This document shows, piece by piece, positions 134 to 47,682 of a DNA stretch of 47,787 nucleotides. A program made the position numbers and the translations under genes. Source of the stretch: an uncultured Roseburia sp. (GTDB lineage: Bacteria > Bacillota > Clostridia > Lachnospirales > Lachnospiraceae); contig CALWHT010000061.1 in NCBI GenBank assembly GCA_944380515.1, positions 1-47,787 on the forward strand. Reading direction: 5' to 3'. Position 1 is the first letter of the stretch; the number at the start of each line of letters is the position of its first letter. The notes under the pieces are model-generated. The model saw nothing but the letters and a program-made list of their open reading frames with translations, had not been told where the DNA came from and made no database searches.

Positions 134-838
134 ATGAGTCCATTTGTATCGTTTCAGCATGTCAATAAAGTGTACAAAACCGGAGAGGTGGAAATTACCG
201 CTCTTAAGGATGTCAATTTTGAAATCGAGCAGGGGGAGTTCTGCGTTATCGTCGGGGCATCCGGCGCTGGCAAAACCACCATTCTCAATATATTGGGAGG
301 GATGGATACGCTGACGGAGGGTCAGGTATTCCTGGACGGTCAGGAGATTTCAAAATACGACAAAAAACAGCTCACCGCTTACCGGCGTTTCGACATCGGC
401 TTTGTATTCCAGTTTTACAATCTGGTACAGAACCTTACCGCGCTTGAGAATGTGGAGCTGGCGGCGCAGATTTGCAGGGAGCCGCTGGACGCGGCCACCG
501 TTCTTAAGGAGGTCGGGCTTGGCGAGCGGCTTTCCAATTTTCCGGCGCAGCTTTCCGGTGGGGAGCAGCAGCGCGTGGCTATCGCCAGGGCGCTGGCGAA
601 GAACCCCAAGCTTCTTTTGTGTGACGAGCCGACGGGAGCCCTGGATTATAATACCGGTAAGGCAGTGCTTAAGCTGCTTCAGGATACCTGTCGAAAGAAG
701 GGCAGGACGGTTGTGGTCATCACGCACAACCAGGCGCTTACGGCAATGGCGGATCGCATTATCACCGTAAAAAGCGGAAGCGTTGCCGGGATGGAAAAGA
801 ATAAACATATCGTAGACATTGCAGATATCGAGTGGTAA
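134..838 (+). CDS. ABC transporter ATP-binding protein (MacB/LolD type)
   Basis: This is the ATPase subunit of a type VII (MacB/LolCDE-like) ABC exporter and should energise the FtsX-type permease that follows. The 234-residue protein shows Walker A GASGAGKT (about residues 41-48), the signature LSGGEQQR (about 140-147), Walker B LLLCDEP with the PTGALD D-loop (about 160-171) and an H-loop VITHN. I chose the ATG at 134 because AGGAG lies at 124-128; an in-frame upstream extension to 59 has no ribosome binding site. A weak promoter-like pair, TTGCAA 59-64 and TATCCT 82-87, lies upstream. It ends four bases before the permease start, so the two are translationally linked. The substrate cannot be told from sequence. 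Confidence 0.93.
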
Positions 839-842
839 CAAT

Positions 843-3803
843 ATGAAATCAATGATAAAGAAATCGACAGTAAGAGAAATCAGGCAGAGCTTCGGGCGTT
901 TTGCTGCCATCCTCGCCATCGTGGCGCTTGGGGTGGCTTTTTTTGCCGGACTTAAGGTTACGCAGTCGGCAATGCTTGCGACGACGCAGAAATATTGGGA
1001 GGAGACGGACTTTTATGATTACCGGCTGCTTTCTTCGCTTGGTTTTACGGAGGAGGAGGTAGAGAGCTTCCGGGAGCAGGAGGATGTGAAGGCGGCGGAG
1101 GGAGCCGTTTCCTTTGATATCATCAGCCAGGTCGACGGAGGGAGCGAGCAGGTTTTAAAGGCGCACAGTATCACGGAGAATGTCAACCGGCTGGTTGTCA
1201 CGGAGGGAGCGCTGCCGCAGGAGGCCGATGAGTGCGTCGTGGACGCGGCTCTTTATGATTCCTCGATCATCGGGAAGACCATCACACTTTCCGAGGAAAA
1301 CGAAGACGAGGATTTAGACCATTTTATATATCGGGAATATACCGTGACGGGGCTTGTTCAGTCCCCGCTTTACATTCAGTTTGAGCGCGGCACTACCTCC
1401 CTTGGAAACGGCAGGGTCAGCGCCTTTATGTATCTGCTGCCCGAGGGCTTTGCGGATGATTATTATACCGAGGCATATATCAAATTTGACGACAGCTTTG
1501 CACTTTACAGTGACGAATATGACGCTTATATGGACGAAAAGGAAAGCGTCTGGGAGGACTTGACGACGGATGCTGCCGAGGCGAGATATGACAAGCTTGT
1601 AAAAGAGGCCCAGGACGAAGTGGATGACGGAAAGGCTGAGCTTGCCGATAAGAAGGCGGAGGCCGAAGCGGAATTTGCCGACGCGAAGCAGGAGCTTGAT
1701 GACGCCGAGTCGCAGATTGCGGATGGAGAACAACAGATTGCGGATGCCAAAAACCAGCTTGAGGAGGCTTCCGCAGAGCTGGATAGCCAGGAGGCCGCAT
1801 TAAATCAGAAAGAACAGGAGCTTGCCGTGCAGGAGGCACAGTTAAATGCGGCGGAAGGTATGATGGACGCACAGCAGGCTGCACAGACGAGAGCGCAGAT
1901 AGAGGGCGCAAGGCAGCAGATTGCGGAAGGGAGAGCAGGCATTTCTGCGGCGAGAGAGCAAATTGAGAGCAGCAGGCAGGAGGTGCAGGAGCAGGAAGCA
2001 GAATTAAATGATGCCAAGGAGGAATACGAGGAAGGGAAAAAGGAGTACGAGGAGAATTTAGAAACCTATCAGCAGGAAATTGCGGACGCGGAACAGGAAA
2101 TCGCGGATGCGGAGCAGGAAATCGCGGATATAGAGGAGCCAGAGGGCTACGTCTTCGGCAGGGAAACCAATGTGGGCTATGTCTGCTTTGAGAGCGACTC
2201 CGGCATTGTGGATGGTATCGCGAATATTTTCCCGGTATTCTTTTTCCTGGTGGCGGCACTGGTCTGCATTACGACCATGAACCGCATGGTGGAGGAACAG
2301 CGGACGCAGATAGGCGTATTAAAGGCGCTTGGCTACGGAGAGGGCACCATTATGTCAAAGTACATGTTCTACTCCGGTTCGGCGGCGCTGCTCGGCTGTA
2401 TCACAGGCTTCTTTGCCGGAACTTATTTTTTCCCGAAGATTATCTGGTATGCCTACGGCATCATGTATCAGGTGGATTCCCTGTTATATATTTTTGATGT
2501 GAAGCTTGGAATTATTTCACTTGTGGTGTCCCTGCTCTGCTCGGTAGGAACGACCTGGGTTTCCTGCCGCTATGAGCTTTCGGAGGTCGCGGCGGAGCTG
2601 ATGCGCCCGAAAGCGCCCAAGGCGGGAAAGCGCGTACTGCTGGAGCGGGTGCCGTTTATCTGGAAACGCCTGAAATTTCTCCAGAAGGTGTCAATCCGCA
2701 ATATTTTCCGCTATAAAAAGCGGTTTTTTATGATGATTATCGGAATCAGCGGCTGTACGGCACTCCTTGTGACGGGCTTCGGCGTGCGGGATTCCGTGAC
2801 GGGGATTGCGGACCAGCAGTATACCGAGATTCAGATATACGATATCAGTGTGACCTATTCGAAGGCTGTGGGCGAAGATGACGAGGAAAGACTAAAAGAG
2901 CTTTCGGAGGAGGGGGTCGAAGCGTATACTTTTGTGTCAGAGAACAGCATGGATTTGCTGGGGGAAGACAGGACAAAATCCATCAGTGTGGTGACCGCCC
3001 AGACGGACACGGATATGACGCCGTTTCTGAATCTGCATACCACGGGGCAGGAGCCGATCACCTATCCGGGAAAGGGCGAGGCTGTGATTTCCCATAAGAT
3101 TGCGCAGGACTTTGGTATTGGGACAGGCGATACCGTTACGCTCAGAGACGAGGAACAGAATGAGCTGAAGCTTCGGATTACCGGCATTTGCAAAAATTTT
3201 GTATATAATTATATCTATATTTCCGCAGATACCTACGAGGAGCAGATGGGAGCTGCGCCGGAGTATAAGACCGCCTATGTCAATGCCGCGGAGGATACAG
3301 ACAGCCATATGCTCGGTACCAGCCTGATGTCACTGGACGGTGTGGCGTCCGTTTCTGTCAGCCAGGATGATATGGAACGTTTTTCCAGCATGATGAGCAG
3401 CATGAATTTGATTGTGGCCGTGATCATCTTCTGTGCGGCGGGACTGGCGTTTATCGTATTGTATAATCTTACCAATATCAATATTACGGAGCGGGTGCGG
3501 GAGATTGCAACCATCAAGGTGCTCGGTTTCTATGAAAAGGAGACCTCATCCTACGTGTTTCGGGAAAATAACATGCTGTCCTTTTTGGGAGCGCTTGTGG
3601 GCCTGGGACTGGGCGTCCTTCTGCACCGTTTTGTGATGAGCCAGATTACCGTGGATATGGTTGCGTTTGATGTACGTATCGAGCCCCAGAGCTATCTCTA
3701 CAGCGTGATTTTAACACTTGTATTCGCGGCGTTCGTTCATCGCCTGATGAAAAAGAAGATTGACTGTATCAGCATGACGGAATCCTTAAAGAGCGTGGAT
3801 TAG
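843..3803 (+). CDS. FtsX-family ABC permease with long extracytoplasmic coiled coil
   Basis: This 986-residue membrane protein is the permease partner of the preceding ATPase. Eight membrane segments are visible as 1+3+1+3: one near the N-terminus, three around residues 465-590, one after the RYKKRFF motif, and three at the C-terminus. Both FtsX cores are therefore present. Between the first and second membrane segments lies a large external part that includes about 190 residues of Glu/Ala/Gln-rich coiled coil (roughly 245-435), ending in tandem short repeats of the type QEIADAE. Such a stalk is known from some Gram-positive FtsX-like permeases and may reach into the wall, but the substrate is unknown. 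The ATG at 843 is preferred over an upstream in-frame TTG at 819; the site has only a weak Shine-Dalgarno, which fits coupling to the upstream gene. Confidence 0.9.
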   Translation: MKSMIKKSTVREIRQSFGRFAAILAIVALGVAFFAGLKVTQSAMLATTQKYWEETDFYDYRLLSSLGFTEEEVESFREQEDVKAAEGAVSFDIISQVDGGSEQVLKAHSITENVNRLVVTEGALPQEADECVVDAALYDSSIIGKTITLSEENEDEDLDHFIYREYTVTGLVQSPLYIQFERGTTSLGNGRVSAFMYLLPEGFADDYYTEAYIKFDDSFALYSDEYDAYMDEKESVWEDLTTDAAEARYDKLVKEAQDEVDDGKAELADKKAEAEAEFADAKQELDDAESQIADGEQQIADAKNQLEEASAELDSQEAALNQKEQELAVQEAQLNAAEGMMDAQQAAQTRAQIEGARQQIAEGRAGISAAREQIESSRQEVQEQEAELNDAKEEYEEGKKEYEENLETYQQEIADAEQEIADAEQEIADIEEPEGYVFGRETNVGYVCFESDSGIVDGIANIFPVFFFLVAALVCITTMNRMVEEQRTQIGVLKALGYGEGTIMSKYMFYSGSAALLGCITGFFAGTYFFPKIIWYAYGIMYQVDSLLYIFDVKLGIISLVVSLLCSVGTTWVSCRYELSEVAAELMRPKAPKAGKRVLLERVPFIWKRLKFLQKVSIRNIFRYKKRFFMMIIGISGCTALLVTGFGVRDSVTGIADQQYTEIQIYDISVTYSKAVGEDDEERLKELSEEGVEAYTFVSENSMDLLGEDRTKSISVVTAQTDTDMTPFLNLHTTGQEPITYPGKGEAVISHKIAQDFGIGTGDTVTLRDEEQNELKLRITGICKNFVYNYIYISADTYEEQMGAAPEYKTAYVNAAEDTDSHMLGTSLMSLDGVASVSVSQDDMERFSSMMSSMNLIVAVIIFCAAGLAFIVLYNLTNINITERVREIATIKVLGFYEKETSSYVFRENNMLSFLGALVGLGLGVLLHRFVMSQITVDMVAFDVRIEPQSYLYSVILTLVFAAFVHRLMKKKIDCISMTESLKSVD

Positions 3804-7352: not shown

Positions 7353-9581
7353 ATGCAGAACGAATGGAGAAATTTTAAAGGCGGAGCATGGGAGACTGAA
7401 ATCAACGTCAGGGATTTCATTCAGAAGAATTATACCCCGTATGACGGGGACAGCTCATTTCTGGAGGGGCCGACGCAGGCTACCACAGACCTCTGGAATG
7501 AAGTGCTTGAGCTTTCCAGGCAGGAGCGGGAAGCAGGCGGGGTATTGGATATGGATACGAAGATTATTTCCACGATTACCTCTCACGGACCGGCCTATCT
7601 GGATAAAGAGAAAGAAAAAATCGTGGGCTTTCAGACCGATAAGCCGTTTAAGCGCTCCTTACAGCCCTACGGCGGAATCCGCATGGCGGTAAAGGCGTGC
7701 GAGGATAACGGATATCAGGTGGATCCTGAGGTGGTGGAATATTTTACGACTCACCGCAAGACACACAACGCGGGAGTGTTTGACGCATATACGCCGGAGA
7801 TGCGCGCCTGCCGTTCCTCACACATTATTACCGGTCTGCCGGACGCGTACGGGCGCGGACGGATTATCGGTGATTACCGGAGACCGGCGCTTTACGGAGT
7901 GGACCGCCTGATTGCGGACAAGGAGGAGCAGTTAAACTCTACCAGAACCATCATGTATTCTGATGTGATCCGTGAGCGCGAGGAGCTTTCCGAGCAGATT
8001 CGGGCGTTAAAAATGTTAAAGGAGCTGGCAAAGATTTACGGCTGCGATATTTCACAGCCGGCAAATAACGTGCTGGAGGCAACCCAGGCAGTTTATTTTG
8101 CTTATCTTGCAGCAGTGAAGGAGCAGAACGGCGCGGCGATGAGCCTTGGCCGGACCTCCACCTTCCTTGATATCTATGCGGAGCGCGATTTGCAGGAGGG
8201 AACCTTTACGGAGAAGGAAATCCAGGAAATCATCGACCAGTTCGTGATGAAGCTGCGCTGCGTGAAGTTTGCCCGCACGCCGGAGTACAATAATATTTTT
8301 GCCGGGGACCCGACCTGGGTAACCGAGTCCATTGCGGGAATCGGCGTAGACGGAAGGCATATGGTCACAAAGATGTCCTATCGTTACTTAAATACCTTAA
8401 ACAACATCGGCGCGGCGCCCGAGCCGAATATGACGGTGCTCTGGTCCGTGAAGCTTCCGGAGAATTTCAAGCGGTTCTGCGCGGAGACATCCATCCGTCA
8501 TTCCGCTGTGCAGTACGAGAACGACGATATTATGCGCGTGGTGCACGGAGACGATTACGGAATTGCCTGCTGCGTATCCTCCATGCGGATCGGAAAGGAA
8601 ATGCAGTTCTTCGGAGCGAGGGCGAACCTTGCGAAATGTTTGCTCTATGCGATCAACGGCGGTGTGGACGAGATCACCGGAAAGCAGGTCGGCCCGAAAT
8701 ACCGTCCGATCACGTCGGAATATCTGGATTACGACGAGGTGTGGGACAAGTACAAGGATATGATGAAATGGCTGGCGGGAGTTTATGTCAACGCCTTAAA
8801 TATCATTCATTATATGCATGACAAATACTGCTACGAAAAAATCCAGATGGCTCTGCACGACAAGCAGGTAAGACGGTGGTTCGCGACCGGAATTGCAGGC
8901 TTTTCCGTAGTGGCGGATTCTCTTTCCGCCATCAAATACGCGAAGGTAAAGCCAATCCGTAACGAGAACGGAGTTACCGTGGATTTTGAGATTGAAGGTG
9001 ACTTCCCGAAATACGGAAACGATGACGACCGTGTGGATGAGATTGCCAAAGAGGTGCTTCATACCTTTATCAATTATGTAAAGGGCAATCATACCTACCG
9101 CGGAGGAATCCCGACCACCTCGATCCTGACGATTACTTCCAACGTCTCCTACGGAAAGAACACCGGGGCGACGCCGGACGGCAGAAAGAAGGGAGAGGCG
9201 TTTGCACCGGGAGCCAATCCGATGCACGGACGCGATAAAAACGGAGCGGTGGCGTCCTTATCCTCCGTTGCAAAAATGCCGTTTATGGATGCACAGGACG
9301 GAATTTCCAACACCTTTACGATTGTGCCGGAGGCGCTCGGAAAGGACGAGGAAAGCTCCGAAAATAATCTGGTAGCGATGCTCGACGGCTATGTGGAGAA
9401 GGGCGGACATCACTTAAATGTCAATGTATTGAAGAAAGAAACGCTGCTGGATGCGCAGAAGCATCCGGAGCAGTATCCGCAGCTTACGATTCGTGTATCG
9501 GGGTATGCGGTGAACTTCATCAAGCTGACGAAAGAGCAGCAGGATGAAGTAATTGCGCGGACATTCCATGAATTAATGTAA
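7353..9581 (+). CDS. pflB: Formate C-acetyltransferase (pyruvate formate-lyase)
   Basis: PFL converts pyruvate and CoA to acetyl-CoA and formate in anaerobic fermentation. The 742-residue protein has the adjacent catalytic cysteines in [12 protein letters not shown] (Cys406 and Cys407) and the glycyl-radical loop RVSGYAVNF near the C-terminus (radical Gly about residue 717). The Cys-Cys pair separates true PFL from glycerol dehydratase or choline lyase relatives. The ATG at 7353 follows GGAGG at 7344-7348. The enzyme needs activation by the radical SAM protein encoded 46 bases downstream. Expression is expected to respond to ZTP through the leader riboswitch. The length is close to that of other PFL enzymes. 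Confidence 0.97.
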
Positions 9582-9582
9582 A

Positions 9583-9609
9583 TGCGGCGGGCGGGCTGCC
9601 CGGGCCGCA
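9583..9609 (+). other. GC-rich intercistronic hairpin between pflB and pflA
   Basis: TGCGGC (9583-9588) pairs with GCCGCA (9604-9609), with further GC pairing inside. There is no T-run, so it is not a terminator. It could shield the 3' end of pflB mRNA and so set the pflB to pflA ratio; that role is inferred. Confidence 0.4.
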
Positions 9610-9627
9610 GGATTTGGAGGCTTAAGA

Positions 9628-10380
9628 ATGGGTTATATACATTCTCTGGAAACCTTTGGCACCGTGGACGGTCCCGGAGTACGTTTTGTCGTATTCTTTC
9701 AGGGCTGTCCGATGCGCTGCCAGTATTGTCACAATCCTGACACATGGAACCCGAAGGACGGACAGCAGATGGAGGCGGGCGAGATTATCGCCCGCTTTCT
9801 GCGCAATGCGTCCTTTTATAAGAACGGCGGGATTACCGCGACCGGAGGGGAACCGATGCTTCAGATTGACTTTCTGACGGAGCTGTTTGCCATGGCAAAG
9901 CAGCACGGGATCCATACCTGTCTGGATACCTCGGGCGTTATGTTCCCGGGAGAGGAGGAAACGGACGGCGCCGGACCGCGGAAGGGGCTGGAAAAAATAG
10001 ATGCAATGCTTGACGTTACGGACCTTGTGATGCTTGACATCAAGCATATCCGTCCTGCGGAGCATAAGGCGCTGACCGGACACTCCAATCGCAATATACT
10101 TGCGTTTGCCCGGTATCTGGAGCAAAAACAAAAGCCCGTGTGGATCCGCCATGTCGTTGTACCGGGCATCACGTTTGAGAAAGAGGAGCTGACGGAGCTC
10201 GGCCGCTTTTTAAAGACGCTTTCCAATGTGGAAAAGCTGGAGGTTCTGCCCTATCACGCCCTGGGGAAGGTAAAATATGACAATCTCGGAATTGACTATG
10301 TGTTAAAGGATACGCCGCAGCTTACGAAGGAGCAGGCGAAGGAAGCGGAGCGCATCATAAGGAGCGCGATGGAGGCTTGA
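9628..10380 (+). CDS. pflA: Pyruvate formate-lyase activating enzyme (radical SAM)
   Basis: This 250-residue radical SAM enzyme puts the glycyl radical on PFL. The [4Fe-4S]-binding CxxxCxxC motif is at Cys27, Cys31 and Cys34 in GCPMRCQYCHNPDTW. The TGGEP motif (about residues 71-75) for SAM binding is present, as are the downstream LDTSG and LDIKH segments typical of PflA. The ATG at 9628 follows GGAGG at 9616-9620. It is in one operon with pflB. Confidence 0.96.
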   Translation: MGYIHSLETFGTVDGPGVRFVVFFQGCPMRCQYCHNPDTWNPKDGQQMEAGEIIARFLRNASFYKNGGITATGGEPMLQIDFLTELFAMAKQHGIHTCLDTSGVMFPGEEETDGAGPRKGLEKIDAMLDVTDLVMLDIKHIRPAEHKALTGHSNRNILAFARYLEQKQKPVWIRHVVVPGITFEKEELTELGRFLKTLSNVEKLEVLPYHALGKVKYDNLGIDYVLKDTPQLTKEQAKEAERIIRSAMEA

Positions 10381-11262: not shown

Positions 11263-11291
11263 TTGACATTATTATTTTATTAAACTATAAT
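11263..11291 (+). promoter_or_regulatory. Consensus sigma-A promoter (TTGACA-17-TATAAT)
   Basis: A perfect TTGACA (11263-11268) and a perfect TATAAT (11286-11291) are separated by 17 bases. This is among the strongest-looking promoters in the window and sits 32 bases before the small unknown gene at 11324. Confidence 0.85.
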
Positions 11292-41441: not shown

Positions 41442-41551
41442 GAGTAAAAGTCAGCTTATATGAAGAGGATGTTCCGCGGAAAAAATGAATGGGAATAGTA
41501 TTAAGTATGTTTACAGTAGGGGCTGATGTGCTAGGCTGTTACAAGAGCGAT

Positions 41552-41597
41552 AGGCTCTGGTTTCTATTGAATGGTAGAAATCAGAGCCTTTCTTATT
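41552..41597 (+). terminator. Terminator after the flavin cassette
   Basis: AGGCTCTGGTTTCTA (41552-41566) pairs with TAGAAATCAGAGCCT (41575-41589), with one G-T wobble, followed by TTCTTATTT. Confidence 0.75.
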
Positions 41598-41670
41598 TGC
41601 CTATCAGCGCATCAGCGGGTTCATGCCGTCAACATATGAGGAAGGAATTACAAATGCCAAGTTTCGGGTT

Positions 41671-41825
41671 CTAGGTCTCCTAGTGTGAACGCCCTGGGCG
41701 TGAAGTGTGCTGCTTAAAGTGATGCAACTTTAAGCGTATCCTGCTACTTTCGCCAAATAGTGGCGTTGCCTATTTTGACGTCGGAAGACACTGATTTTCA
41801 GATGAAGTCTGGAGGTTGGTGTCTT
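41671..41825. other. Non-coding region with five consecutive hairpins
   Basis: Inverted repeats follow each other with little space: CTAGG/CCTAG (41671-41683), ACGCCC/GGGCGT (41689-41701), GCTTAAAGT/ACTTTAAGC (41712-41735), CGCC/GGCG (about 41751-41765) and AAGACAC/GTGTCTT (41785-41825). The region lies inside a 690-base gap (41442-42132) that has no convincing gene. It may be a structured RNA, an origin or transfer region of the mobile element, or a leader of the replication genes. Confidence 0.5.
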
Positions 41826-41908
41826 TTGTTATGTCCGCCATGCACGGCTATTGTTCTCTGTAGTCAATTAATAAAAAATATTTTGATTTTTTGTCCGTCA
41901 ACAATTTT

Positions 41909-42074
41909 TGACTCAATGTAAATAGTGAAAAGAAAAATTATGAAAAAATATGTCACGTTTTTTGCAATCAGCTTTTTTTGACTCCAAGTACATAGTGAAA
42001 AACAAAAAGTTTTTAAAAAAGTTTGCCACATTTTTTGCAATCAGCTTTTTCTGACCCTAAGTACTTAGTGTAAG
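41909..42074 (+). repeat. Three iteron-like direct repeats
   Basis: A 23-base repeat of the form TGACYCNAAGTACNTAGTG occurs at 41909-41931, 41979-42001 and 42052-42074, about 70 and 73 bases apart. Between them a second repeat, TTTTTTGCAATCAGC, appears twice. They sit directly upstream of the replication module, as iterons or operator sites would. Confidence 0.7.
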
Positions 42075-42132
42075 AAAAATGTTTAAGCTGGCAAAATGTG
42101 AGATTTACAAGACGCAGAGAGGAGATAAGAGG

Positions 42133-42831
42133 ATGCAGTCAAAGGAAGCAATGAAAAAATTAGCGGACAACTATGAAACATTAGTATTTGTTAGTAAGCG
42201 TTATCCTAGTTCGATATCGCGATTGAAAAATCTGTTAATGTCGGAGGGCGTATCAGAAACTTCTGCCCGTAGAAAAATTGCAGAATTGGAGACGGAGGCA
42301 GGATGTCTGGTGTTGGAAAGAGGTGGAAGCCTGAAACTGAATCAGGAATTGATTTCACAAATGTTCTTACAAATACAGATGGAGCTTGATCTTCCAAATC
42401 GTTTGGCAGAGGAACAAGAGCAACAGTTAGCTACGTGGAAACGCAAGTTGGAAACGTTAGAACAGCAAAAGGCGGATGAAATTAAGGCGCTAAAAGCAGA
42501 AATCGAAAGCTATAAACGTATGGTGGAAAGACAGAAGAATGAATTTAAAACAGAGAAAGAACGCTATGAATGGAGCCGTAGATTTGACAGGGATTTATAC
42601 TTGGAAGTTTCCCGGAAACTTGAAGAAGCGGAAGAAAAAATTGCTGATATGAAGAAGGGTGTATGGTCGTATCTCAAGGTTTGCAGAAAAGACCGAAGAG
42701 AGGAACGTTTGAAAGAAAAGCGTCTCAAGAGAGAAAGAAAAGAGCGTCAGAAACTTTATGAAGAAAATGAGCGAAAGTACGCAGAAATGAGAAAGGAAAT
42801 GAAGGAATCCGGTTATGGGAGAGGAGTATAA
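42133..42831 (+). CDS. Coiled-coil protein with winged-helix-like N-terminus, replication module
   Basis: This 232-residue protein begins with a helix-turn-helix-like part (about residues 10-65, SISRLKNLLMSEGVSETSARRKIAELE) and continues as a long, highly charged coiled coil to the end (EKRLKRERKERQKLYEENERK). I cannot name a family. Its place directly after iteron-like repeats and before a RepA_N initiator suggests a DNA-binding accessory or partition factor of the element. The ATG at 42133 follows AGAGAGGAG; an ATG at 42079 lies upstream in frame but inside the repeat flank. Confidence 0.75.
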   Translation: MQSKEAMKKLADNYETLVFVSKRYPSSISRLKNLLMSEGVSETSARRKIAELETEAGCLVLERGGSLKLNQELISQMFLQIQMELDLPNRLAEEQEQQLATWKRKLETLEQQKADEIKALKAEIESYKRMVERQKNEFKTEKERYEWSRRFDRDLYLEVSRKLEEAEEKIADMKKGVWSYLKVCRKDRREERLKEKRLKRERKERQKLYEENERKYAEMRKEMKESGYGRGV

Positions 42832-42833
42832 GA

Positions 42834-43316
42834 ATGAGTAAATACATGTACGAACATACGAAGATGCCGCCATATTTGCCAATGCCACGATTTCTGTTGA
42901 ATTGTCCAATCAGTAACACGGCGAAGATGCTGTATATCCGGTTGTTGGGTAAAGCGCAACTGTCGCAAAAGAATCGTTGGCTGGACGGACAGGGAAGAGT
43001 TTACTTTATTTATCCCATCCATCAGATGGCTGCAGATATGAATAAAAGTGAAACAACCATCAAGGATGCAATGAAGGAATTGGTGAAGGTGCAGTTGTTA
43101 GAGAAAATCTCGGAAGGACGGGGACGACCTAACCGGTTATATATTTTATTTTCGGATGAGGAACATGGACAGAAATCCGCGGACGGAAATCCGACAGAAG
43201 TAGGGAAGAAAAACGTCGGTAACTATGGCGGAAATCAGTCCCCTAGTAAATATATAAGTAAAAAGAATAGTAATCCTTTAAGGGATTATGACTATGATGA
43301 AAAGGAGAGTTTTTAA
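42834..43316 (+). CDS. Replication initiator, RepA_N domain
   Basis: The 160-residue protein matches the RepA N-terminal domain of Firmicute plasmids and integrative elements: FLLNCPISNTAKMLYIRLLG, AQLSQKNRWLDGQGRVYFIY, and the winged-helix MNKSETTIKDAMKELVKVQLLEK followed by GRGRPNRLYILF. These proteins bind the origin and start plasmid-type replication. It begins two bases after the upstream stop, and the DnaC-like gene begins two bases after its own stop, so the three form one operon. It is shorter than full RepA proteins and lacks a long C-terminal domain. Confidence 0.85.
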   Translation: MSKYMYEHTKMPPYLPMPRFLLNCPISNTAKMLYIRLLGKAQLSQKNRWLDGQGRVYFIYPIHQMAADMNKSETTIKDAMKELVKVQLLEKISEGRGRPNRLYILFSDEEHGQKSADGNPTEVGKKNVGNYGGNQSPSKYISKKNSNPLRDYDYDEKESF

Positions 43317-43318
43317 CT

Positions 43319-44116
43319 ATGGGAAAAGAAAGAGAATTTTATATTGGTGAAGATGGATTAGAGCATTGTTCGGTATGTAAGGAGCCTTTAATGGTGTTGT
43401 TCTCGGAACGATTACAACACGTTGTTGGATTGAAATCGCATCCAAGATGGTGCGCTTGTCAAAGAGCAGAATTTGAAGGTGAAGAGCGTGAACGTAAGGA
43501 ACGTGAGCATTTACATGAGGTAGAGAAGAATACATTGGTGTGTTTTTCGGAGCGAGCTATGAAGGCGTGGAATTTTAACAATGATAATGGTTCTAATCCT
43601 TGTATGCCATATGCGAAGCAATATGTGGAGCATTGGGATGAAGTTAAGAAAAAGAACATAGGATTGTTGTTATGGGGCGATGTCGGTACAGGAAAAAGCT
43701 ATATGGCGGCGTGTATCGCCAACGCATTACTTGAGCAGGAGAAGAAAGTCCTTATGACTAACTTTTCCGCTATCAGTAATCAAATATTTGCTTCAACAGA
43801 CAAGAATGCATACATAGAAGCCGTTTGTTCATATGACTTATTGATTCTTGATGATTTGGGTTCAGAACGCAGTTCCAGTTATATGATGGAGAATGTGTTT
43901 CAAGTGACTGACAGGAGAGTATGCTCCGGCAAGCCTATGATCATTACGACGAATCTTACGGTAAAGGAAATGAGAGAGACGCAGAACATGGATGAAAAGA
44001 GAATTTACGACCGAGTACTCCAAAATTGCCAGCCTATTTGTGTGAATGGAGAGAACCAACGCAGAGAAAAGAGCAAGCAAAATAGAATTGAATTGGAACA
44101 GATTTTTCAAGGATAA
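43319..44116 (+). CDS. DnaC/IstB-like ATP-binding protein
   Basis: This 265-residue AAA+ protein probably loads the replicative helicase at the element's origin. An N-terminal cysteine cluster (CSVCKEP... and WCACQR) resembles a zinc finger. Walker A is GDVGTGKSY (about residues 118-126), Walker B is LLILDDLGSE, and sensor 1 is in MIITTNLT, with the C-terminal arginine region IYDRVLQNCQPI. AAGGAGAG lies before the ATG. It is the third gene of the replication operon. Confidence 0.9.
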   Translation: MGKEREFYIGEDGLEHCSVCKEPLMVLFSERLQHVVGLKSHPRWCACQRAEFEGEERERKEREHLHEVEKNTLVCFSERAMKAWNFNNDNGSNPCMPYAKQYVEHWDEVKKKNIGLLLWGDVGTGKSYMAACIANALLEQEKKVLMTNFSAISNQIFASTDKNAYIEAVCSYDLLILDDLGSERSSSYMMENVFQVTDRRVCSGKPMIITTNLTVKEMRETQNMDEKRIYDRVLQNCQPICVNGENQRREKSKQNRIELEQIFQG

Positions 44117-44215
44117 ACTGTCGTTTATATTAGCAAAAAAGGTAGGTCTAACTTAAGAAGCAATCTCATAGTATTGAAAAGAAAGACAAGCTGGAGAAGG
44201 AGGTGGAGATTCCGC

Positions 44216-44449
44216 TTGAAACAGAGAAAATTGAATTATCGCTTTCATAATCCGAATTCGGCGGAGGATACCGCTGACTTCTTGTGTAAGCTTTTGATTG
44301 AAGCAAACGTAGGGAAGGTGGAACGTGCGATTGATGAGGCTGCATCGAGGTGTGCAGAAGAAAGTGAGTACATAGCAGTGCCGGAGGACGTGAAGGTAGA
44401 TGCACTAGAGGAAGAAACGGTGAATATAAGACGAAGAAGAGCAAGGTAG
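44216..44449 (+). CDS. Small element-associated hypothetical protein
   Basis: The 77-residue product has the motif LNYRFHNPNSAEDTADFLCKLLIEAN, which I associate with small unnamed proteins carried by Lachnospiraceae integrative elements; the function is unknown. The likely start is TTG at 44216, 12 bases after AAGGAGG. A second short frame (44173-44250, without a standard start, ending in EVEIPLETEKIELSLS) overlaps it and looks like the end of a companion peptide whose start codon has decayed. A terminator overlaps the stop codon. Confidence 0.6.
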   Translation: MKQRKLNYRFHNPNSAEDTADFLCKLLIEANVGKVERAIDEAASRCAEESEYIAVPEDVKVDALEEETVNIRRRRAR

Positions 44450-44466
44450 AGATGCCTTGCTCTTTT
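44437..44466 (+). terminator. Terminator after the replication module
   Basis: AAGAGCAAGG (44437-44446) pairs with CCTTGCTCTT (44455-44464), followed by TT. It closes the element operon and isolates the next island. Confidence 0.8.
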
Positions 44467-44489
44467 ATGAAATAATTGGGCTCCTAATA

Positions 44490-44536
44490 TTGACTTTAAT
44501 ATAAAATTAAACTATAATGAATAAAAATAAACTATA
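44490..44536 (+). promoter_or_regulatory. Promoter and direct-repeat operator of the HTH-nuclease operon
   Basis: TTGACT (44490-44495) and TATAAT (44513-44518) are 17 bases apart. TAAACTATA occurs at 44508-44516, over the -10 box, and again at 44528-44536, 20 bases on. Such spacing suggests an operator bound by the small HTH protein encoded just downstream. Confidence 0.7.
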
Positions 44537-44545
44537 GGGTGTAAT

Positions 44546-44791
44546 ATGAGAACAAATTCTATTCACAAAGAGATAAAGATGAATTTGGCACGTTCTGGTA
44601 TGACACTAACTGAAGTGGTTAGTAGAATGAATAAGAACCGTTCCGAAGAGAATCAAACGACCATACAAAACATATCAAATAAAATCATGCGTGGGACAAT
44701 AAAGTATTCCGAAATCTTGGAGATAGCTGCCATACTAAACATGAGTATTGTATGGACAGAGGCAAGAGAGGAGGAAATGCAAAATGTATGA
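44546..44791 (+). CDS. Small helix-turn-helix protein
   Basis: The 81-residue protein looks like a lambda-repressor-type HTH (MTLTEVVSRMN, QTTIQNISNKIMRGTIKYSEILEIAAILNM). It probably controls its own operon through the direct repeats upstream. AGGGTG precedes the ATG. Its end overlaps the start of the nuclease gene (ATGTATGA), so both are translated together. A regulator of a defence or addiction module is the likely role, but this is inferred from arrangement. Confidence 0.75.
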   Translation: MRTNSIHKEIKMNLARSGMTLTEVVSRMNKNRSEENQTTIQNISNKIMRGTIKYSEILEIAAILNMSIVWTEAREEEMQNV

Positions 44792-45626
44792 TGAGATACT
44801 TAGTACTTATACGGATAGTGAGATAGTACAGATATGCAAATATTTAAACAAGGATTACAACATATATGAACCGGATGAAGTGCGATGGGAAAAAATAAAA
44901 TACGCATTTTATAAAACAAGTGAGCAAACAATTATCGAATTGCAGAAGGAAACTTTTTCTAATGAGTTTATTAATCGTCTTATGCTTAAGTATTATGCAT
45001 GCGAAAGAGTAATAAAATATCATTTTATAAAATATCTCAAAGATGCAATTCATGATATTGTAGCATTTGAAATGTCAATTGGAGATAGTAGAATTGATAT
45101 CTGTCGTATCAATGGTAAATTGTGTGCATATGAAATAAAGACAGAGTATGACAATTACGATAGACTTGAGACTCAGATGAAAGACTATTTTAGTGCATTT
45201 GAGAGAGTTTATATTATTGTTCCAATACAAAATGCGGAAACTGTACAAGAGTACATTCCTCCACAATGTGGAATAATAACATATAGATTAGATGAATGTG
45301 GTAATATGATTTTTGCATATAGGCGCTCGGCTCAAGATAATAAATGTGATATTGATTTCTGCTTAAATAGTTTATCTAGTAGCGATTTAACCAAAATAAT
45401 AAAACTTCTTAGATTAAAGCCGTGTAAAACAAAAAATGAAAATCTTGAGCTGTTACTAGGTGTTGCTAAAGAAAAAAATATATGGTCGATATATAAACAT
45501 TTCTTGAAAGAAAAGTATAAGGAACAATGGAATTATTTGAGAGGGAATTTTGATAAGATTTTACCGATTGATTGCCAGAGTTTTTTCTCATCGAAGATGA
45601 ATCCTGATTTGTTATATGAAAAATAA
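44784..45626 (+). CDS. sce7726-family protein, predicted PD-(D/E)XK nuclease
   Basis: The 280-residue protein matches the sce7726 family. The core reads EMSIGDSRIDICRINGK, then AYEIKTEYDNYDRLETQMKD, then VYIIVP, with the later PQCGIITY. The Asp of RID, the E-x-K of YEIKTE, and the following Gln fit the active site of PD-(D/E)XK nucleases. The family is named from a Sorangium protein usually encoded beside sce7725, as here, and I know of no proven function. The C-terminal 100 residues are unique to me. The start ATG at 44784 follows GAGGAGGAA. Confidence 0.85.
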   Translation: MYDEILSTYTDSEIVQICKYLNKDYNIYEPDEVRWEKIKYAFYKTSEQTIIELQKETFSNEFINRLMLKYYACERVIKYHFIKYLKDAIHDIVAFEMSIGDSRIDICRINGKLCAYEIKTEYDNYDRLETQMKDYFSAFERVYIIVPIQNAETVQEYIPPQCGIITYRLDECGNMIFAYRRSAQDNKCDIDFCLNSLSSSDLTKIIKLLRLKPCKTKNENLELLLGVAKEKNIWSIYKHFLKEKYKEQWNYLRGNFDKILPIDCQSFFSSKMNPDLLYEK

Positions 45627-45627
45627 A

Positions 45628-45668
45628 AGAATCATATGGCTTGTTTATAGCCATATGATTCTCTTTTT
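45628..45668. terminator. Bidirectional terminator between the two halves of the island
   Basis: AGAATCATATGGCT (45628-45641) pairs perfectly with AGCCATATGATTCT (45649-45662). T-rich runs on both strands (CTTTTTT and CTTTTATTTTT) serve the convergent sce7726 and sce7725 genes. Confidence 0.9.
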
Positions 45669-46720
45669 TATGCACCTGTTTCGTACATAGTATAAATATA
45701 GTGCAACATAGTGATCATTTTCCATTGCCCTTGGTTTTTCCCGCTTTTGACCTTGGCTAGAATAGAAAGAATTTCTTGACAACCAGGGCACTTTTCATGA
45801 TGTTCATCTGAAAATTCATTCCAATATTCAGATTCGACGATGCTCGGTGCAATATAGTCTGGAAATTCGGAAAGTTGTGCAGTTCTGCCTTTAAACGCAA
45901 CAAAGAAATTGTTGTCGTTTGAGTAGTAGACTCCAGCAGGACTAATGGCACCGCCTGTTGAAGGGAGAGATGCCACTATGCAAGCATAATCGCCAAAACC
46001 ATCAAATTTATTCATGATGCTTGTATTGTATAATTCCTTCAAACTATTATCAATCTGACCAATGGGTTCTTTGTCGGCCATTGATTTATTTGTTAATGTT
46101 TCTGGGCGATTTGCATTGATAACCACAGAAATAAAATTCCTTTGCTTTTTACTATCAGAAATCCGTTTGTAAATCTTTTTGAATACCGGGTTCATGTGTG
46201 AAGAGGATTCTATATCTAATAGAACGATATCATTTTCTGCTATTAAACCTTCTACATGTGAAAAGATATTCTCGAAATCTTGTGTTTTTATACGGAATGC
46301 AATTTTTGGAAATACTTTTCGATATTCATTAACTTCATGTGTCATTCTGTTTAAGGATACATTTTCGCTAAGGTAAGAAATAACGGGAATAACTCGTTCG
46401 GAAAATTCTCTTAATTTGAGTGTTTCTTCGATACAAAAGTCTACTTGACGAGTTGATAACGAAATGTAAGTTCTTACAGCATCTGTTGTACTATTCAATT
46501 TTGTTGATTTTAAGAAATCTATCATAAGAGCCATATCGGAGTTGGCACTTAATAATTCTGCTAAATCATCCAAGATGGTATTTTTGTTGTTTGAACGGGT
46601 TTTCTCTTGTATTAATTCAACTAATGGAAGGACAGAAGTGTTGCTAAAAACTCCTAATTCTGCTAATTGAGTTAATACGCTCATTTCTACTGTTCGGTTT
46701 TTAAGTATAGGAACATACAT
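45668..46720 (-). CDS. sce7725-family (beta family) protein
   Basis: The 350-residue protein matches the sce7725/beta family, whose members start with MYVPILKNRTVE and a PLVELIQEK segment and look like a TIM-barrel-type fold with alternating hydrophobic strands. The conserved C-terminus has CPGCQEIL and GKNQGQWKMITMLHYI. The molecular function is unknown; the family pairs with sce7726. GGGAGG precedes the ATG. Its start lies one base after the stop of the FRG gene, so the two are coupled. Confidence 0.85.
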   Translation of the reverse strand: MYVPILKNRTVEMSVLTQLAELGVFSNTSVLPLVELIQEKTRSNNKNTILDDLAELLSANSDMALMIDFLKSTKLNSTTDAVRTYISLSTRQVDFCIEETLKLREFSERVIPVISYLSENVSLNRMTHEVNEYRKVFPKIAFRIKTQDFENIFSHVEGLIAENDIVLLDIESSSHMNPVFKKIYKRISDSKKQRNFISVVINANRPETLTNKSMADKEPIGQIDNSLKELYNTSIMNKFDGFGDYACIVASLPSTGGAISPAGVYYSNDNNFFVAFKGRTAQLSEFPDYIAPSIVESEYWNEFSDEHHEKCPGCQEILSILAKVKSGKNQGQWKMITMLHYIYTMYETGA

Positions 46721-46721
46721 G

Positions 46722-47441
46722 TCAGATACCTCCCTTCGCTTTGTAATCTAAGTGGTAAGCTAATCCCTCAAGCCCTGGATATATGAAAGACCGGTTAATT
46801 CCGAACCAATCTAAATCGTTAACAAAATCTTTGATAATACTGTTTGGAATGATTAATTTATCTACCATACAGAGTTCATCATTGATTTTTGTTTTATCTA
46901 GTGGAACAGTTGGGTTTTTGTGCACGGTAAAAACACCTTTTTGCGCTATGATTCTTGGATGTATATAACTTGGTGCATAAAGAACAACGTCGTCTTCGTC
47001 CGATAAAGAAAAAACATCTAGAACATCTGCGGTATTAGAGTTGAATTGTGTTTTGTCAACAACGTATACTGCAACATCATTTCCGTTTGAATTTTCCGTG
47101 GCAAAATAAGCCGCTATAAGAGGATTTTCTGTCCAATCTAAGAATCTAGTAGGTAAGCCGTGATGTTGTCCTATAGTCCATTGGTCCCAGGAACTTATAT
47201 TTCTTAAATCCATATGCGGGATGGACATTTTAATAAACTCATTCATAATTCGTTCTTCCATGTCCTGCAAATCATCAACAATGGATTCTGCTTGGCATCT
47301 TGCAACATACGGTTCGCGTCCTATTTTAGGTACAAGTAAATAGTCTAAATGATTCATACCACGAAAAATATGATTTCTAGTATAGTTTTTCTCTACATAT
47401 GATAAATAGTCAATAAAGGAATTAATAGTTATTTCGTTCAT
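46722..47441 (-). CDS. FRG domain-containing protein
   Basis: This 239-residue protein has the FRG domain named for the motif seen here in HIFRGMNHLDYLLVPKIGR, with the second hallmark QHHGLPTRFLDWTENPLIAAYFAT at about residues 93-116. FRG proteins are frequent in mobile elements and in predicted phage-defence loci, and the biochemical activity is not established. AAGGAGG lies 12-13 bases before the ATG. A TATAAT box on the minus strand (near 47480) lies upstream without a clear -35. It is first in the operon with the sce7725-family gene. Confidence 0.9.
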   Translation of the reverse strand: MNEITINSFIDYLSYVEKNYTRNHIFRGMNHLDYLLVPKIGREPYVARCQAESIVDDLQDMEERIMNEFIKMSIPHMDLRNISSWDQWTIGQHHGLPTRFLDWTENPLIAAYFATENSNGNDVAVYVVDKTQFNSNTADVLDVFSLSDEDDVVLYAPSYIHPRIIAQKGVFTVHKNPTVPLDKTKINDELCMVDKLIIPNSIIKDFVNDLDWFGINRSFIYPGLEGLAYHLDYKAKGGI

Positions 47442-47595
47442 ATATTCAGCAAGCCTCCTTTTTGTCTATAGTGCCAATATTATACAACATATTTCCTTGA
47501 AATACTAGTAGTTATGCATATATAATAGTGAAATGAAAGTAGATTATTAAGAAGTTACGATAGATAAAGCAATTCAGCTTACGGAGGAAAATGGG

Positions 47596-47682
47596 ATGTC
47601 AAAATTAACTTGGGTAAAAGAGATTATTGTAAAAGAATTATATGCACCATATGAGGTGGAAAAGTTTGAAACAAATAAGTGA
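47596..47682 (+). CDS. Possible 28-residue peptide
   Basis: After ACGGAGGAAAATGGG an ATG at 47596 opens 28 codons (MSKLTWVKEIIVKELYAPYE and eight more residues) ending at TGA 47682. The ribosome binding site is good, and an AT-rich promoter-like TATAAT lies near 47521. It could be a real small protein or the decayed start of a longer one. The rest of 47442-47787 holds only a small hairpin (GCCA/TGGC near 47720) and no other gene that I can see before the window ends. Confidence 0.35.
   Translation: MSKLTWVKEIIVKELYAPYEVEKFETNK

Follow-up and report, generated by a model that had tools for sequence, protein, structure and literature searches.

What might an FRG-domain gene do when it stands directly beside relatives of the beta and cII proteins of phage P4? 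The question is raised by a four-gene island at the end of a 47,787-nt stretch of an uncultured Roseburia sp. (GenBank assembly GCA_944380515.1, contig CALWHT010000061.1, positions 1 to 47,787), here called the window. The answer favoured here, with a probability of roughly one half, is that the island is a P4-type (gop-beta-cII-like) abortive-infection module, probably mobile, in which an FRG protein takes the place of Gop as a swapped effector. The beta/cII pair is already known from P4, and FRG in the gop slot appears to be new; no description of FRG paired with beta/cII was found in the literature searched, a search whose scope lay outside most subscription papers and bioRxiv preprints.

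The island consists of two converging operons of two genes each. On the forward strand, the gene of an 81-amino-acid helix-turn-helix (HTH)-like protein (44546-44791) overlaps by 8 nt a gene of the cII/sce7726 family (44784-45626), whose product, with a PD-(D/E)XK-like core, has 280 amino acids counted from the ATG at 44784; the mechanical list of open reading frames starts it at a TTG at 44748. On the reverse strand, the FRG-domain gene (46722-47441, 239 amino acids), the candidate effector in the gop position, is followed after 1 nt by the gene of a beta protein (PF14350; 45668-46720, 350 amino acids) related to P4 beta. FRG and beta are probably carried on one transcript, since they share a strand and are separated by a single nucleotide. 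A bidirectional terminator (45628-45662), with a perfect 14-bp stem, a 7-nt loop and T-rich sequence on either side, lies between the two converging stop codons. Its hairpin has a predicted stability of -20.5 kcal/mol (z -6.0), none of 200 shuffled sequences was equally stable, and terminator prediction was positive on both strands. The genes, strands, overlapping or abutting frames, convergent operons and perfect shared terminator described in an earlier interpretation of this DNA (the sequence-only reading) agree with these coordinates.

The 350-amino-acid protein matches the Pfam family Beta_protein (PF14350) at 3.3e-22 (79.9 bits; cut-off 27) and P4 beta by BLAST at 5.3e-5, and P4 beta itself matches PF14350 at 4.3e-56. 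The name sce7725 previously given to this protein was dropped: NCBIfam has an sce7725 model, and the protein reaches no NCBIfam sce7725 model at E<=0.1. The product of the converging gene matches the sce7726 model NF033832 at 1.5e-33 (116 bits; cut-off 70), the PADLOC 'cll' model at 7.9e-20 and P4 cII by BLAST at 1.6e-11. Two relatives of beta, from loci in the window's order (L060) and class (L065), match the PADLOC model PD-Lambda-2_C at 9.7e-30 and 8e-62, respectively. What had been described as an uncharacterised pair thus proves to be related to P4 cII and beta, which are parts of a tested anti-phage system; beta is related also to component C of PD-lambda-2. Searches of phage and plasmid records with the window's beta, and single-protein viral scans with its beta, FRG and cII, gave no result. 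Profile searches of the PDB by sequence found no solved relative of FRG or cII; the best E values for beta, cII and FRG, 0.16-0.31, belonged to entries with unrelated names.

In the P4 record, gop (247-648, forward strand, 133 amino acids) is followed after a 2-nt gap by beta (651-1718, forward strand), a putative terminator (1720-1749) and, on the reverse strand, cII (1746-2540), which is annotated as sce7726 family. FRG occupies gop's place in this arrangement, suggesting a single defence core that can be equipped with different killing enzymes. According to Rousset et al. 2022 (PMC9122126), E. coli is protected from the phages lambda and P1 by gop-beta-cII, and, as stated there with reference to Ghisotti 1990, Gop is toxic when beta is missing. 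P4 Gop possesses one N-terminal hydrophobic stretch by a simple hydropathy count and matches no Pfam family above cut-off. None of the four island proteins matches the PADLOC gop model, and the island is for this reason set apart as a variant rather than a member of gop-beta-cII; this variant probably works in the same manner. Kinship of FRG with Gop was considered and rejected, the best BLAST match to P4 Gop having an E value of 0.17 over 9 residues.

The FRG protein matches PF08867 at 5.2e-22 (79 bits; cut-off 25) and the PADLOC candidate PDC-S15 at 1.9e-67 over nearly its full length. R27, G28, H93, T98, D102, F113 and Q167 are invariant among 45 aligned FRG proteins, a set whose scan patterns covered H93-T98 and D102. 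The window's FRG protein looks intact and is predicted to be an ADP-ribosyltransferase-like enzyme. FRG has been assigned to the ART superfamily, with the suggestion that Frg might function as an NADase in the context of prokaryotic immunity, and RES is likewise assigned to this superfamily (PMC9503650). FRG had earlier been cast as a sensor or modifier; its position in the P4 toxin slot points rather to an effector.

In cII, E96, D105, N110, E117, K119, D123 and Q131 are invariant among 23 aligned members including P4 cII, which bears out the D...ExK...Q pattern previously noticed in the sce7726 core. The E...D...ExK...Q signature, which we take to be of the PD-(D/E)XK type, is invariant also in a set of 52 cII members, although in that set part of ExK was imposed by the pattern used for the scan. 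Single cII members show weak matches to HSDR_N_2, NERD and Tox-REase-9. The window's cII looks intact and is predicted to be a PD-(D/E)XK-like nuclease or a DNA-binding partner. SAP domains, which hint at DNA binding, are found in 6 of the 52 relatives.

Genomes with PF14350 matches were found in surveys of the window's order (4/196), class (6/391), phylum (12/398) and family (5/299), the window's genome being counted in each. These are 24 distinct genomes, two of which, G000 (the window's) and G1227, carry the locus in a single lineage. In 22 of the 24, cII occupies the corresponding position, in 21 convergently; G032 has cII on beta's strand with a toxin-antitoxin-like pair between them, G477 has beta and cII at the ends of two contigs, and G288 has beta without cII. 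On virus contigs, a beta gene is present in 62 of 80 cII loci (the best 80 of 149). A set of 88 beta loci, deduplicated on the last 100 beta residues, so that L020 was dropped as identical to L122, contains 69 convergent pairs, 14 tandem cII-beta and one tandem beta-cII arrangement, two loci with the pair far apart and two without cII. As 56 of the 88 derive from the cII scan (the best 80 of 149), finding cII in those 56 carries no independent weight, unlike its presence in the 24 genomes that PF14350 identified. By the count in those 24, beta and cII form a conserved pair. Among individual loci, L063 (8692-11604) has beta without cII beside a 597-amino-acid AbiU-like protein (PADLOC, 1.4e-40), and in L103 (2790-3972) and L115 (4989-8510, with other frames between) beta is split into two frames, so that some copies look broken.

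The island is part of a 6.16-kb stretch (41506-47663) that has 90.2% DNA identity with G1227/SIG299 (blastn against L122), a genome of a different genus in the same family. This stretch also contains genes for a 250-amino-acid protein, RepA_N (42834-43316) and a DnaC-like ATPase (43319-44116), the latter two identified with Pfam and NCBIfam, which agrees with the replication module recognised earlier beside the island; the whole is probably a mobile module. Ratios of nonsynonymous to synonymous substitution (dN/dS, NG86) between the two genera are 0.02 for FRG, 0.07 for beta and 0.09 for cII, and these three genes are under purifying selection. The ratios for the flanking genes are 0.16 (RepA_N), 0.06 (DnaC-like) and 0.24 (250-amino-acid protein). 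Synonymous divergence (dS) spans 0.25 (cII) to 0.87 (beta), and the shared stretch is therefore probably a mosaic. RepA_N matches are found in 20 of 200 family genomes, the nearest besides the window at 51% identity.

Partners of beta were searched for within 2.5 kb using seven profiles. The profiles were seeded from proteins previously found beside beta, which are bound to match (all 8 Gop-like, 4 of 9 HigB, 5 HTH-M78, the 4 M78 abutting beta and 2 of 3 RES), and the counts consequently describe what was seen rather than an unbiased census. A Gop-like small protein lies just upstream of beta in 8 of the 88 loci, P4 included; among four other Gop-like proteins, three reach E values of 4.6e-4 or lower with the PADLOC gop model, and that of Pmp11 gives no match. 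HigB with HTH-M78 is found in nine loci, upstream of beta and on its strand in three (L062, L129, L130) and divergent from cII in six (L061, L064, L067, L124, L125, L127). Lone phage-type HTH repressors are also labelled HTH-M78 by the profile, which was counted only where HigB was present too, and the identity of HigB is weak, PF05015 falling below cut-off in three scanned proteins and giving no match in a fourth. An M78 peptidase, counted only where at most about 30 nt separate it from a beta gene downstream, occurs in four loci (L109, L110, L115, L133). The nine HigB and HTH-M78 loci near beta/cII suggest, as an observation of its own, that loci of the PD-lambda-2 type often have cII as a fourth gene.

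RES proteins are found in three of the 88 loci (L142, L181, L122), and in L110 a RES-Xre pair stands beside the beta/cII pair. On two virus-classed contigs RES follows beta in a cII-beta-RES string: in L181 (4593-7620) with a 4-nt overlap and then a 2-nt gap, and in L142 (957-3845) with RES beginning 4 nt before beta ends. RES was identified in 6 of the 50 records searched behind the beta loci, and beside beta/cII in 3 (L181, L142, L110). Beside the window's FRG lies a remnant of a RES-domain gene (47596-47682, forward strand, 28 codons), the first 23 residues of which align with the RES protein of the sister locus L020 with three differences, followed by divergence and a stop; the genome of the window (G000) gave no RES match. 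In L020 the RES gene (8814-9926, 370 amino acids) is divergent from the adjoining FRG gene, and its product matches PF08808 at 7.3e-5, at the cut-off, and a profile of the L142 and L181 RES proteins at 4.3e-5. A large serine recombinase is encoded further on in L020 (10036-11616).

Taken broadly, these loci can be read as a modular phage-sensing and restraint core, beta/cII, present in many bacteria with interchangeable effectors, the window being the FRG version; this generalisation is put forward at somewhat less than even odds. It would be a similarly tentative step to list as such effectors the Gop-like proteins, HigB with HTH-M78 (which would join PD-lambda-2 to the P4 system), M78, and ART enzymes, namely RES and, on the window's branch, FRG.

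Several observations weigh against FRG as the effector of a P4-type module. FRG stands beside beta in 2 of the 88 beta loci, both of one lineage (the window, and G1227/L020, which is L122). From an order-level sample of 34 FRG places in 32 of 196 genomes, 30 loci were fetched with 1.5-kb flanks; beta is present at one, the window itself, and at none of the 29 others, and neither beta nor cII is present at any of 80 viral FRG loci (the best 80 of 110; flanks up to 4 kb). The idea that sce7726/beta loci include FRG as a conserved component was accordingly rejected. Conserved linkage of FRG to sce7725/sce7726, the lack of which had been named beforehand as one refutation of the sequence-only reading, was thus not found across these collections, and only a link at the level of one lineage remains. 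The window's beta matches neither the PADLOC beta model nor PD-Lambda-2_C at E<=1. The partner slot varies: of the nine loci with HigB and HTH-M78, three have the pair upstream of beta and six have it divergent from cII, and RES follows beta. Beta is nearly always with cII and cII not always with beta: sce7726 is above cut-off in 16 of 196 order genomes (18 at E<=0.001), and 8 of the 16 are without beta, the remainder comprising four with a PF14350 beta, three with a tandem beta-like gene below the reach of Pfam and one at a contig end.

Most FRG proteins are not located near beta and might function on their own. FRG might then be an independent single-gene defence candidate, of the PDC-S15 type, that landed beside beta-cII, leaving two systems with no joint mechanism. 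The strong PDC-S15 match and the lack of a beta/cII neighbour at all 29 other order loci and all 80 viral loci favour this explanation, and so does the fact that defence genes cluster. Against it, FRG and beta lie on one strand with a 1-nt gap that has been kept between genera at dS 0.5-0.9, and FRG occupies the P4 toxin slot; the explanation is regarded as unlikely. The probability that any of the 88 betas would by chance have FRG within 200 bp on its upstream side is about one in a thousand, a rough figure that assumes evenly placed FRG genes at 0.17 per genome (some 3 Mb); because defence genes cluster, the true value is higher. FRG and sce7726 occur in the same genome in 7 of the 16 sce7726 order genomes (one-sided Fisher p 0.006); within the window's family, FRG is found in 6 of 9 sce7726 genomes and in 10 of 22 genomes overall (p 0.11), so that the order-level co-occurrence may reflect kinship. 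Plasmid records with FRG (30 listed of 40) and the 8 with a P4-like beta have no listed accession in common. In G180, a near miss, FRG and sce7726 are located about 15 kb apart on one contig, without a PF14350 gene.

Alternatively, and close to what the sequence-only reading proposed, beta and cII might form a complete two-gene defence core with the cII nuclease as effector and FRG as accessory or modifier. The invariant E/D/ExK/Q signature of cII and the SAP domains of some relatives speak for this, and 49 of the 88 beta loci, 13 of them near a contig edge, have no recognised partner within 2.5 kb, which also tells against a three-gene module because beta/cII may work without a third gene; in 10 of the 14 tandem cII-beta loci, no same-strand gene of at least 70 amino acids directly follows beta. 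Those without a partner represent an upper bound on true absence, however, as they were defined by seven profiles. The toxic part in P4 is reported to be Gop (PMC9122126), and dN/dS is lower for FRG than for beta or cII, the other two large genes; a complete beta/cII core with cII as effector is considered improbable. The defence-type character and the nuclease-like core claimed earlier are at least plausible. Finally, the adjoining RepA_N and DnaC-like ATPase genes in a stretch common to two genera, together with a toxin-antitoxin-like layout, would suit an addiction or plasmid-competition module of a mobile element that is not mainly directed against phages. Both characterised relatives, gop-beta-cII and PD-lambda-2, are reported as anti-phage systems (PMC9122126, PMC9519451), and this last explanation is considered very doubtful.

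If the island is a P4-type module with FRG as effector, FRG, an ART-superfamily enzyme by published assignment, would be the toxin, acting by NAD+ consumption or by ADP-ribosylation of a target. Beta, its operon partner, would restrain FRG and take part in sensing infection, and cII/sce7726, from the converging operon, would complete the switch as a nuclease-like or DNA-binding partner. Should the wider modular reading hold, P4 gop-beta-cII and PD-lambda-2, so far described separately, would be two forms of a single modular design. A role open to testing would be assigned to the sce7726 and beta proteins, for which annotations often give no function. FRG, a widespread domain that lacks an established partner, would acquire one that, according to whether it is present or missing, should turn the toxicity of FRG off or on.

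In such a module, the 81-amino-acid HTH-like protein would autoregulate the cII operon through two TAAACTATA repeats. These direct repeats, a candidate operator (44508-44536, forward strand), lie 20 bp apart. The first overlaps the -10 element, and both are kept in L020; their core, AAACTATA, has one further copy in the window, at 11282. The HTH-cII operon is preceded by a sigma-70-like promoter, TTGACT-17-TATAAT (44490-44518, forward strand; 11/12 positions in a consensus scan). The scan found 18 sites against a shuffle mean of 17.1, no excess, and the promoter call therefore rests on its position and on both hexamers being present also in L020. The only Pfam matches of the protein that reach the cut-off are DUF6471 (3.1e-6) and Hom_end (3.6e-4, exactly at cut-off). 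It matches PADLOC PDC-M64C weakly (0.015), a model that also matches the HTH parts of PD-lambda-2 B relatives. Autoregulation, suggested before, is plausible and likely in view of the repeats kept at the promoter, although the HTH label itself is weak. A relative was seen only in L020 among the profiled loci, where the protein has 78 amino acids and the gene differs by 7 bases and 3 residues. A role as RES-type antitoxin was considered; the protein shows no Xre/MbcA/ParS toxin-binding domain by Pfam at E<=1.

Compared with known systems, the island shares with RES-Xre an ART-superfamily enzyme near a small HTH-like protein, and RES occurs with cII-beta elsewhere; it differs in possessing FRG instead of RES and an HTH-like protein without the Xre/MbcA/ParS domain. 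With the FRG proteins of PDC-S15 it shares the near full-length match, whereas the other FRG loci are seen without coupling to beta. PD-lambda-2 is described as comprising a HigB-like protein, a fusion of Xre with a peptidase and, as third component, C, which is related to a P4 phage antitoxin and required for defence, the second part being the toxic component (Vassallo et al. 2022, PMC9519451). The beta-family third component is common to both, as the window's beta is related to C; 9 of the 88 loci have HigB and HTH-M78 in the vicinity of beta/cII, and all four scanned HTH-M78 proteins match PADLOC PD-Lambda-2_B. In contrast, none of the four island proteins matches HigB or HTH-M78, and neither was found within 2.5 kb of the window's beta, where the sequence ends 346 bases past FRG. 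Differences from P4 gop-beta-cII are FRG where P4 has gop, the extra HTH-like gene before cII, a cII about 64 residues longer ahead of the core, and PADLOC gop and beta models without a match in the window. The two nevertheless have in common homologous beta and cII proteins, a toxin-slot gene abutting beta, a convergent cII and a terminator between them.

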